Assembly (NCBI RefSeq): GCF_003011925.2
Contig: NZ_PXXU01000010.1
Span: 1-64,000 of the forward strand
Direction of reading: 5' to 3'
Origin: Nitrosomonas supralitoralis
GTDB lineage: Bacteria > Pseudomonadota > Gammaproteobacteria > Burkholderiales > Nitrosomonadaceae
Length of the DNA stretch: 64,000 nucleotides
Below are positions 32,353 through 34,921 of this stretch, piece by piece. The position numbers and the translations under genes are program-made. The first letter of the stretch is position 1. The number at the start of each line of letters is the position of its first letter. Under the pieces are notes generated by a model. It saw only the letters and a program-made list of their open reading frames with translations. It had not been told where the DNA came from and did not search any database.

Positions 32353-33109
32353 TATATTAGCTATTGACTCAGGAAATTCTTATGTAAAATGGGGATTGTT
32401 CAGTGGTAATCAATGGATAAAGCAAGGTAGTGTTTTTTATGATGAGGTTTTAACCCTTAATAATGAATTCCTGAATTTTCCTACGCCAACGTCCATTATT
32501 ATCTCTCATGTAGCGCGTAGTGAAACAAAAGATCACATAACTAAGTTAATTTCCCAATGGCCAACAAAACCACAGTGGCTTGTTTCAAATAATTTTAGAT
32601 GTAATGTGATGAATGGTTATTCCAATCCTAATCAATTGGGTAGTGATCGTTGGGCGGCTTTAATTGCTGCATGGAAAATTGAGAAACATGCTTGTTTGGT
32701 TATCAACGCTGGATCAGCAGTGACAATTGATGTACTTTCTAAATCTGGAAAATTTCTTGGTGGAATTATACTTCCTGGAATTGATTTAATGGTTAAGAGT
32801 CTTCTTTTAGGTACACAACTTACAAAGATTGATTCGGCAAGTTATCAAGATTTTCCTGTCAGTACCGACAGTGCAATACAAAGTGGTATGATACATAGCA
32901 TCATAGGCGCTAGTGAACGAATGTACAATCTTCTATTGTCGAACGAAAATCTTAGATCTGTCAACTGCATTATAAGTGGTGGAAGTATTTCATTACTAAT
33001 GCCCTATTTTAAGTTTCCAATAAAGGTTGTAAATAGATTAGTGTTAGAAGGCTTGATCATAATTGCTTTAGACTCGGAAACCAATACAGAATTACAGTTT
33101 TCAATATGA
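32345..33109 (+). CDS. coaX: Type III pantothenate kinase
   Basis: Phosphorylates pantothenate, the first committed step of coenzyme A synthesis; type III enzymes are not inhibited by CoA and usually need a monovalent cation. ATG 32345 gives [19 protein letters not shown] and 254 residues. The ASKHA-fold phosphate motif DSGNS (8-12), GSDRWAAL and [10 protein letters not shown] are present. The start overlaps birA by 8 bp, and the birA-coaX pairing is common in proteobacteria. An earlier in-frame start at 32309 lies within birA and is rejected. Confidence 0.93.
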
Positions 33110-33708
33110 TTATGCGCCAATTGTTAAATGCTACTTTTTATGTCTCTGTTCATGAAACTCGAGAATTGCCTAAGCATTCTGGTGTTGAAATTGCGTTTGC
33201 TGGTCGATCAAATTCAGGAAAATCAAGTGCTATTAATGCACTAACTAATATAAATCGTTTGGCGTTTGTGAGTAAAACTCCTGGACGTACGCAACTAATT
33301 AATTATTTTCAATTGAAGTCGGACCATTTTCTTGTGGATTTACCGGGATATGGTTACGCTAAAGTTCCAGAGTCCATACGGCAACATTGGCAAAATCTAT
33401 TAAGTAATTATTTGCAGACCCGAAGTTCACTTAAAGGTTTAATATTAATTATGGATGTTCGTCATCCGCTCAAGCCTTTAGATATCCAGATGCTTGATTG
33501 GTTTTCAGCAACTGGAAAAGCGATTCACATTTTATTAACAAAGGCAGATAAAATGAGTAAGTTTCAAGCAAATGCCGCTTTGCAAAAGGTTGCTCTTTAT
33601 GTCAAGGAAGTTTACCCTCAATGCAGTGTTCAACTATTTTCTAGTTTGGCAAATATTGGCATCGATGATGCAACGGCAATCATAAATAAATGGATGCAAA
33701 CTGATTAA
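33106..33708 (+). CDS. engB: Ribosome-assembly GTPase EngB/YsxC
   Basis: GTPase acting in late 50S assembly. The 200-residue protein has the P-loop GRSNSGKS (33-40), switch region [22 protein letters not shown] and the specificity motif TKAD. Two ATGs (33106 and 33112) are both possible. It overlaps the coaX stop by 4 bp, so birA-coaX-engB form one transcription unit. The stop is followed by a 205-bp gap holding a candidate antisense-strand small RNA. Confidence 0.94.
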
Positions 33709-33745
33709 TATAAGAGCGCTATAGGATCCGTCGCGGTATGTGCGT

Positions 33746-33779
33746 AAAAAACCCCGGTTAAAGGGGAGTAAAACCGGGG
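33746..33779 (-). terminator. Intrinsic terminator on the minus strand
   Basis: An eight-pair GC-rich stem (33752-33759 with 33772-33779, 12-base loop) followed in the minus direction by six T residues (plus-strand A run 33746-33751). It would end the candidate small RNA, and could also stop leftward readthrough from mrcA across hemB. On the plus strand no T-run follows, so it is not an engB terminator. Confidence 0.75.
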
Positions 33780-33835
33780 GAACCGCCTTAATATCACACT
33801 CTCTGTCTCAGGGAGGAAAGACAGGGGACGATCAA
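33746..33835 (-). ncRNA. Candidate small RNA with two anti-Shine-Dalgarno loops
   Basis: Read on the minus strand, the engB-hemB gap forms two hairpins. The first pairs CUGUCU with AGACAG (33803-33824) around the loop UUCCUCCCUG; the second pairs CCCCGGUU with AACCGGGG (33752-33779) around UUACUCCCCUUU and is followed at once by six U residues. Both loops show pyrimidine runs (CCUCC, CUCCCC) complementary to Shine-Dalgarno sequences. The 5' end is uncertain; a TATCTT element (plus-strand AAGATA near 33834-33839) could be a -10 but no good -35 is seen. I recall an Rfam family called Betaproteobacteria toxic small RNA with anti-SD loops; membership is not verified. Confidence 0.55.
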
Positions 33836-33892
33836 GATAGTCCATTTATGTGACACAAACTATTTAAATCAGTTCCCCCAATTTATTTTTAA

Positions 33893-34921
<1,029 letters not shown>

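Follow-up and report, generated by a model that had tools for sequence, protein, structure and literature searches.

Positions 33,746–33,843 of the minus strand likely hold the gene of a trans-acting small RNA (sRNA), a divergent ortholog of anti-hemB that would be driven by RpoE, would probably be assisted by Hfq, and would mask Shine-Dalgarno sites with its loops. It would belong to an old engB-linked lineage that includes anti-hemB and probably also ErsA and sX13. The window (the whole 64,000-nt stretch of Nitrosomonas supralitoralis DNA that was analyzed) and the genomes compared with it provide computational support for the locus, a covarying structure, open loops, a promoter of the RpoE class, and the presence of rpoE, rseA, and hfq. 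Judged on all the comparative evidence, the candidate is a real sRNA gene. The literature examined assigns no function to anti-hemB, although it is a curated RNA. The gene itself is a variant of this known RNA; what is new and testable is its RpoE-type promoter and the engB/polA lineage.

Locus, structure, and family of the sRNA gene

The candidate gene (33,746–33,843, minus strand) is approximately 98 nt long, with its start placed by promoter spacing and the first conserved G. Its convergent neighbor engB (yihA/ysxC; 33,106–33,708), which marks the locus, and its divergent neighbor hemB (33,914–34,921) are both on the plus strand, opposite to the sRNA as the initial annotation had stated. 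The presumed start at 33,843 precedes the first hemB ATG (33,914) by about 70 bases, and transcription of the sRNA would point away from hemB. The true gene likely extends beyond the interval annotated earlier (33,746–33,835), with promoter elements reaching as far as 33,876. A covariance model built from 35 Nitrosomonadaceae copies (R1), one of which is the window copy, matches 33,743–33,843 with 82 bits. A mobile origin was rejected, as the sRNA has a single copy in its own genome and the plasmid collection searched contained no DNA similar to the locus. A small protein was also rejected; the 46-aa minus-strand open reading frame at 33,705–33,845 begins 2 bases before the presumed RNA start, and its ATG is missing at that position in many relatives (by eye, uncounted). 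Inspection of 33,914–33,960 by eye suggests that hemB itself may start at 33,947, an in-frame ATG after AAGAAGA, and not at the first ATG (33,914).

Reading of the minus-strand sequence at 33,746–33,835 confirmed two hairpins with CCUCCC and CUCCCC loops. Hairpin H1 (33,803–33,824) pairs CUGUCU (33,824–33,819) with AGACAG (33,808–33,803) over 6 pairs and exposes the anti-Shine-Dalgarno loop UUCCUCCCUG (33,818–33,809). The terminator hairpin H3 (33,752–33,779) pairs CCCCGGUU (33,779–33,772) with AACCGGGG (33,759–33,752) over 8 pairs, 6 of which are G-C, around the loop UUACUCCCCUUU (33,771–33,760), and is followed by a tract of six U (UUUUUU; 33,746–33,751) that may form an Hfq-binding 3′ end. 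The eight-pair stem and the six U described earlier as a terminator are therefore present, but the second hairpin is this terminator itself and there is no third element. On the plus strand, no T-run follows the H3 stem, and thus the stem would terminate a minus-strand transcript only. A simple terminator scan did not list H3 because its loop is 12 nt long and the scan permits loops of 3–8 nt.

The folds of L066, L080, L091, L115, and similar relatives contain four hairpins, namely H0 at the 5′ end, H1, H2 (e.g., GCCUUAA...UUAAGGC), and the terminator H3, and most of the other copies in the family retain the middle hairpin H2. The left arm of H2 has been lost in the window copy and in six relatives (G045, G063, G085, G089, G090, and G091). 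In the window copy, the former right arm of H2 (33,780–33,795, minus strand) is predicted to pair with the 5′ arm (33,831–33,843, minus strand), which is part of H0 in most relatives, and to close a long stem around H1. The same pairing, with both loops open, is predicted for five of the six relatives; the predicted fold of G091 deviates, and its H1 loop is less open (0.43). Relative to dinucleotide shuffles, the fold of 33,746–33,835 has a z-score of −2.25 (4 of 200 shuffles fold as well), and that of the likely full transcript, 33,746–33,843, has a z-score of −2.65 (2 of 200 shuffles as good). Conservation is a stronger argument against chance than these scores.

At the curated Rfam cut-offs, the whole window contains two tRNAs and nothing else. 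At a relaxed threshold, a search of 311 bases gave RF02837 (anti-hemB) as the best match (35.8 bits, E 5.7e-7), under its gathering cut-off of 49.5 bits. The cmscan run suggested with the initial annotation thus returned an Rfam match on the minus strand, albeit sub-cut-off, but did not support the family that had been named there, RF02278 (Betaproteobacteria toxic small RNA; 17.7 bits against a cut-off of 50, E 0.29), although RF02278 likewise has two hairpins with CU-rich loops directed against ribosome-binding sites (PMC5688073). LhrC, BSR0626, and the remaining weak cmscan matches were far under their respective cut-offs and were rejected, and RF01719 and RF02232 (cut-offs of 50 bits) and RF00021 had no matches in the window region up to E 10.

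Anti-hemB, also called “Burkholderia RNA 7” and represented by ncS04 in B. cenocepacia, lies on the opposite strand between engB and hemB as the window copy does, and its H1 with a CCUCCCUG loop and its terminator hairpin are both found in the window copy. The window copy differs in lacking the left arm of H2 and refolding, in a terminator loop with CUCCCC in place of the short U loop of the Rfam consensus, and in an RpoE-type promoter where Burkholderia-like copies have TATATCAT-type elements. By place and structure, the window gene is a divergent ortholog of anti-hemB, and a variant by its sub-cut-off score and missing hairpin arm. ncS04 is described as anti-hemB, 105 nt long, expressed, with a confirmed 3′ end, and is said to bind Hfq with reference to Ramos 2013 (PMC5688073). 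RF02837 has 81 positions, and the greater length of ncS04 is consistent with additional sequence at the 5′ end, as in H0. An Hfq-bound B. cenocepacia RNA, Bc7, is described as having hemB as a predicted target and as resembling RybB (PMC6321483).

RF02837 matches 113 of 125 Nitrosomonadaceae genomes, 89 of them above the cut-off, compared with 3 of 14 control genomes and none above the cut-off. The analysis covered 98 of the 113 matching genomes, which provided 100 loci and 104 copies; the other 15 (with loci among L002–L030) were left out. On the opposite strand, engB and/or hemB adjoin the copy in 101 of the 104 cases; the three others are G055, G096 (a chance-like match), and the second copy in G056. 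Throughout the order Burkholderiales, 235 of 300 genomes match (195 above the cut-off), so the name “Burkholderia RNA 7” is too narrow. The rest of the order was sampled with the 30 top-scoring loci and 20 loci (21 copies) that are mostly one per further family, a choice that favors high scorers; among these 51 copies, engB is convergent downstream and/or hemB divergent upstream in 39, engB is on the other side in 7, and neither is in the stretch examined in 5.

Additional copies were observed at several sites. Locus L041 (G018:C126) has three tandem sRNA copies between hemB and engB (1458–2074), each with its own [GT]GAACT-type promoter, and despite these Tandem Repeats Finder reported no array there. 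One genome of the order, with six RF02837 matches, has above-cut-off copies away from engB and hemB (L183, 1593–1858; L184, 1495–1579), which are preceded by CATAAT-like elements and no GAACT motif. The assembly G033 contains two different hemB-linked copies (L131, G033:C15; L055, G033:C7), one of which is on a 3.3-kb contig, and may reflect a paralog or contamination.

Alignment A1 was taken from 100 of the 104 copies (three without a −35 element and one with an odd distance were left out) and thinned to <90% similarity, leaving 36 copies, of which 35 were aligned and the short L131 was omitted. Hairpins H0–H2 were set by hand from single folds; H1–H3 were counted, and H0, which aligns poorly, was omitted. 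The structure was thus drawn partly from the same sequences in which it was counted, and shuffled and slid controls accompany the counts. In the 35 copies, 88.9% of the H1–H3 cells pair, 17 of 23 base pairs are changed on both sides (matched by none of 500 shuffles), and the covariation score is 0.296 (at most 0.149 in the slid controls), with a less striking count of further pair types, reached by 5 of 500 shuffles. RNAalifold on a MAFFT alignment recovered the terminator stem only (8 pairs). The motif CTCCCT is present in 100 of the 104 copies and CCTCCCT in 92. The H1 loop of the window copy is predicted to be unpaired with a probability of 0.96, and among 100 copies the loops are predicted to be open in 96 for H1 (unpaired probability >0.8) and in 99 for H3. 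The loops are the fixed part of the RNA. Both the conserved loops and the covarying stems that the initial annotation had proposed to look for in other Nitrosomonadaceae are thus present, and conservation, covariation, and predicted accessibility lend good support to the claim of exposed anti-Shine-Dalgarno loops on a minus-strand sRNA.

RpoE-type promoter

Upstream of the sRNA, the minus strand carries a −35 element, GGAACT (33,871–33,876), followed after 17 bases by an atypical −10 element, TCACA (33,849–33,853). The RpoE (sigma-E) promoters of E. coli have the form GGAACTT-N16-TCTGA/TCAAA, and the promoter of the sRNA has, by its sequence, the shape of this class. The motif [GT]GAACT is upstream of 101 of the 104 family copies, the exceptions being G096 and the second copies of G094 and G114. 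Together with a −10-like element (GTC or TCT, 13–21 bases on, with GAACC allowed), it is found in 98 of the 104. A stricter pattern holds for 81 copies, with spacers of 17 or 18 and TCTTA in 61 of the 81, among which TCACA is unique to the window copy.

The genome encodes rpoE (322 bits) with rseA directly after it, as well as hfq and four weaker matches to other RpoE-like ECF factors. The same kind of motif precedes rpoE at 27 of 31 family loci (the best 30 loci of 61 genomes and the genome’s own locus), compared with 2 of 31 on the reverse strand, and in 26 of the 27 loci it lies 152–171 bases ahead of the matched region, and its spacer to GTC is 16–17. The sRNA and rpoE therefore share a promoter class. 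Across the genome, the strict pattern GGAACT-N17/18-TCTNA is not enriched (6 matches versus 11 for a reversed control), and accordingly no regulon was drawn.

In the rest of the order, the motif (with TCA also allowed) is found in 37 of the 51 copies, spread over 30 of 38 bacterial families. L132, L133, and L151, the Burkholderia-like copies, have no RpoE-type motif and carry TATATCAT or TATATGAT elements, which fits the report that ncS04 was unchanged across the seven conditions of Table 2 in PMC5688073. The promoter shared with rpoE and the ErsA-like locus give anti-hemB a testable role as an RNA arm of the betaproteobacterial envelope stress response, which would take in ammonia oxidizers.

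Copies in other Gammaproteobacteria and comparison with ErsA, sX13, and Spot 42

A class-wide sample yielded RF02837 matches in 92 of 184 genomes, including the window’s own genome and one of the same order, and 10 were above the cut-off; the weak matches may be due to chance because three control genomes match as well. The gammaproteobacterial set was read from 49 loci with 55 copies, which comprise nearly all listed matches down to E 2.8e-6 and leave out G579, G487, the second site of G524, and all weaker matches. Within this set, engB is downstream on the opposite strand at 30 of the 49 loci and polA is upstream on the same strand at 28; one or both are so placed at 39 loci and both at 19, the neighbors are reversed at 3, and neither is in the stretch examined at 7. 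The gene hemB was found at none of the 49 loci. An RpoE-type motif precedes 41 of the 55 copies (mean 0.5 and maximum 4 in 200 base shuffles).

In all 49 loci, R1 has a match where RF02837 has one (E 7e-9 to 5e-3), a result that is partly circular as the loci were found with RF02837; one of them, L267, lacks engB, polA, and CTCCC, and its match could be due to chance. In a control of 208 kb comprising the window and other loci, the single R1 match is the window’s own gene. Several gammaproteobacterial copies overlap sub-threshold matches of the sX13 and ErsA models, most clearly L258 (48.3 and 37.1 bits against cut-offs of 50). Taken together, these results give good support to a common origin of anti-hemB and the engB-linked gammaproteobacterial copies. 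As separate observations, L258 has four tandem copies between polA and engB (1549–2287), of which one scores close to the sX13 cut-off and another matches ErsA weakly, and one gammaproteobacterial genome has a c-di-GMP-I riboswitch (77.9 bits; L237, 2037–2121) near its engB-linked sRNA.

ErsA and sX13 loci were located with their own Rfam models, independently of RF02837. One of 370 genomes has an ErsA locus (L280, 121 bits), and sX13 loci were identified at L281–L283 (103–124 bits), with a further locus, L284, at 49.5 bits. At all five loci polA is just upstream, and engB was not found in the stretches examined. By eye, L280 has the promoter TGAACTT-N17-GTCATA, no GAACT-type motif was seen at L281–L283, and L284 has GAACC...GTCTTA and a CCCCTCCCTG loop. 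In 22.6 kb, R1 found the five ErsA/sX13 sites and nothing else (E 0.002–0.034), with weak and correctly placed matches on ErsA (L280, E 0.0025) and on sX13 (L281–L283, E 0.014–0.034). Searched over all 55 sources together, R1 gave the same five sites at E 0.015–0.25.

ErsA (Pseudomon-1, RF01719) of Pseudomonas resembles the window sRNA in the engB/polA-type locus of L280, in its C-rich terminator loop, and in its promoter class, as GGAACT-N17-TCACA in the window is of the sigma22/RpoE type and use by RpoE is predicted; it differs in an H1 without CCUCCCUG. ErsA is described as 132 nt long (PMC7565897), strictly sigma22-dependent, and repressing algC at its ribosome-binding site with Hfq, as well as oprD (PMC7565897, PMC6321483), and as activating anr (PMC8575079). 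The Xanthomonadaceae RNA sX13 (RF02232) shares three C-rich loops and the polA locus, but has no GAACT-type promoter in L281–L283 and is reported to be Hfq-independent, with its C-rich loops acting on G-rich motifs (PMC3771888). The same source describes sX13 as lying at polA like Spot 42 and alpha-r7, without sequence similarity to either (PMC3771888). These comparisons make a shared origin with ErsA and sX13 likely.

Spot 42 (spf, RF00021) of E. coli is located between polA and yihA (= engB), after polA and convergent with yihA, an arrangement as in the gammaproteobacterial copies. Its homology was not supported, as R1 had no match at its E. coli locus and RF00021 had none in the window region up to E 10. 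The E. coli annotation places a small protein, SpfP, within Spot 42 at this kind of locus (L279, 4418–4465).

On balance, we lean toward the view that anti-hemB, Pseudomon-1/ErsA, and sX13 form one ancient family of RpoE-driven RNAs with anti-Shine-Dalgarno loops at the 3′ side of engB in beta- and gammaproteobacteria. Its neighbor polA would have been exchanged for hemB in betaproteobacteria and its sigma-E promoter replaced in Burkholderia and Xanthomonas, and Spot 42 would be the enterobacterial occupant of the site, either derived from the family or substituted for it. If the polA- and engB-linked copies indeed form a single family, findings on ErsA and sX13 could be transferred to anti-hemB, and the three Rfam families, which currently have no clan, should be joined. 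Among the papers listed in the literature searches, none linked anti-hemB with ErsA or sX13, and none combined “Nitrosomonas,” “small RNA,” and “hemB.”

Proposed function and alternative explanations

We infer transcription, Hfq binding in the Nitrosomonas host, and the existence of mRNA targets for this sRNA. Envelope stress would free RpoE (sigma-E) from RseA, and RpoE would then transcribe both rpoE and the sRNA. Hfq may hold the sRNA by its U-tail, allowing the CCUCCC and CUCCCC loops to pair with ribosome-binding sites resembling AGGGAGG or AAAGGGGAG. Such pairing would block translation of the targets, as reported for ErsA on algC. The RybB/MicA-type sRNAs of enterobacteria, which the window sRNA may resemble in function, are sigma-E-driven and shut off mRNAs in envelope stress, but they pair through a 5′ seed instead of C-rich loops and differ from the window sRNA in locus and structure.

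The position of the gene also raises the question of cis-antisense control, in which the RNA would act on hemB or engB by pairing with an engB–hemB read-through transcript or by interference between divergent promoters. The sRNA is opposite to both genes, roughly 70 bases separate its presumed start from the first hemB ATG, read-through from engB could occur as the plus strand lacks its own terminator at the H3 stem, and the linkage to hemB is retained in betaproteobacteria. Nevertheless, the sRNA overlaps neither reading frame, the gammaproteobacterial copies at polA/engB have no hemB, and fixed unpaired C-rich loops with covarying stems fit action in trans better, making control in cis quite improbable. 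Antisense action on hemB is probably not the main role of the sRNA, given that its transcription would run away from that gene.

Doubts about the window copy itself center on its promoter and its lost arm. The atypical −10 element (TCACA), the strict pattern’s lack of enrichment (6 versus 11), the four weaker ECF factor matches, and the TATATCAT-type elements of Burkholderia-like copies would all suit a trans-acting anti-Shine-Dalgarno sRNA that is transcribed with the housekeeping sigma factor or a different ECF factor and stands outside the envelope stress response here. We consider this a minor possibility, given that the motif is shared with the rpoE upstream region at 27 of 31 family loci, recurs at the above-cut-off ErsA locus L280, and belongs in ErsA to a promoter published as strictly sigma22-dependent (PMC7565897). 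The same −10 element, together with the lost left arm of H2 and the score under the RF02837 cut-off, could also indicate a copy that was functional in an ancestor and is losing its function in the window lineage. This is very improbable: the window copy retains an intact H1, H3, and U-tract, the six relatives that share the H2 loss keep both loops and have −10 elements nearer the consensus, and five of these relatives are predicted to form the refolded closing stem.

Against the preferred reading of an RpoE-driven, Hfq-assisted sRNA that blocks translation in trans speak the atypical −10 element and the lack of enrichment of the strict pattern, the missing promoter of the Burkholderia-like copies and the unchanged ncS04, the Hfq-independence reported for sX13, and the activation of anr by ErsA. 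Candidate targets were sought with the exact ribosome-binding-site pattern complementary to the H1 loop, which occurs at 4 places compared with 2 for a reversed control. One match is before a 501-aa open reading frame that appears helicase-like by eye, and the others are before frames of 29–39 codons; this thin attempt gave no convincing target. In the same genome, a promoter-like sequence, GGAACT-N18-TCTTA, is located 161 bases before a 103-aa frame (L171, 1501–1529; G000:C169:30887–30915). By eye, the encoded protein resembles a small c-type cytochrome and is possibly the product of an RpoE-regulated gene.
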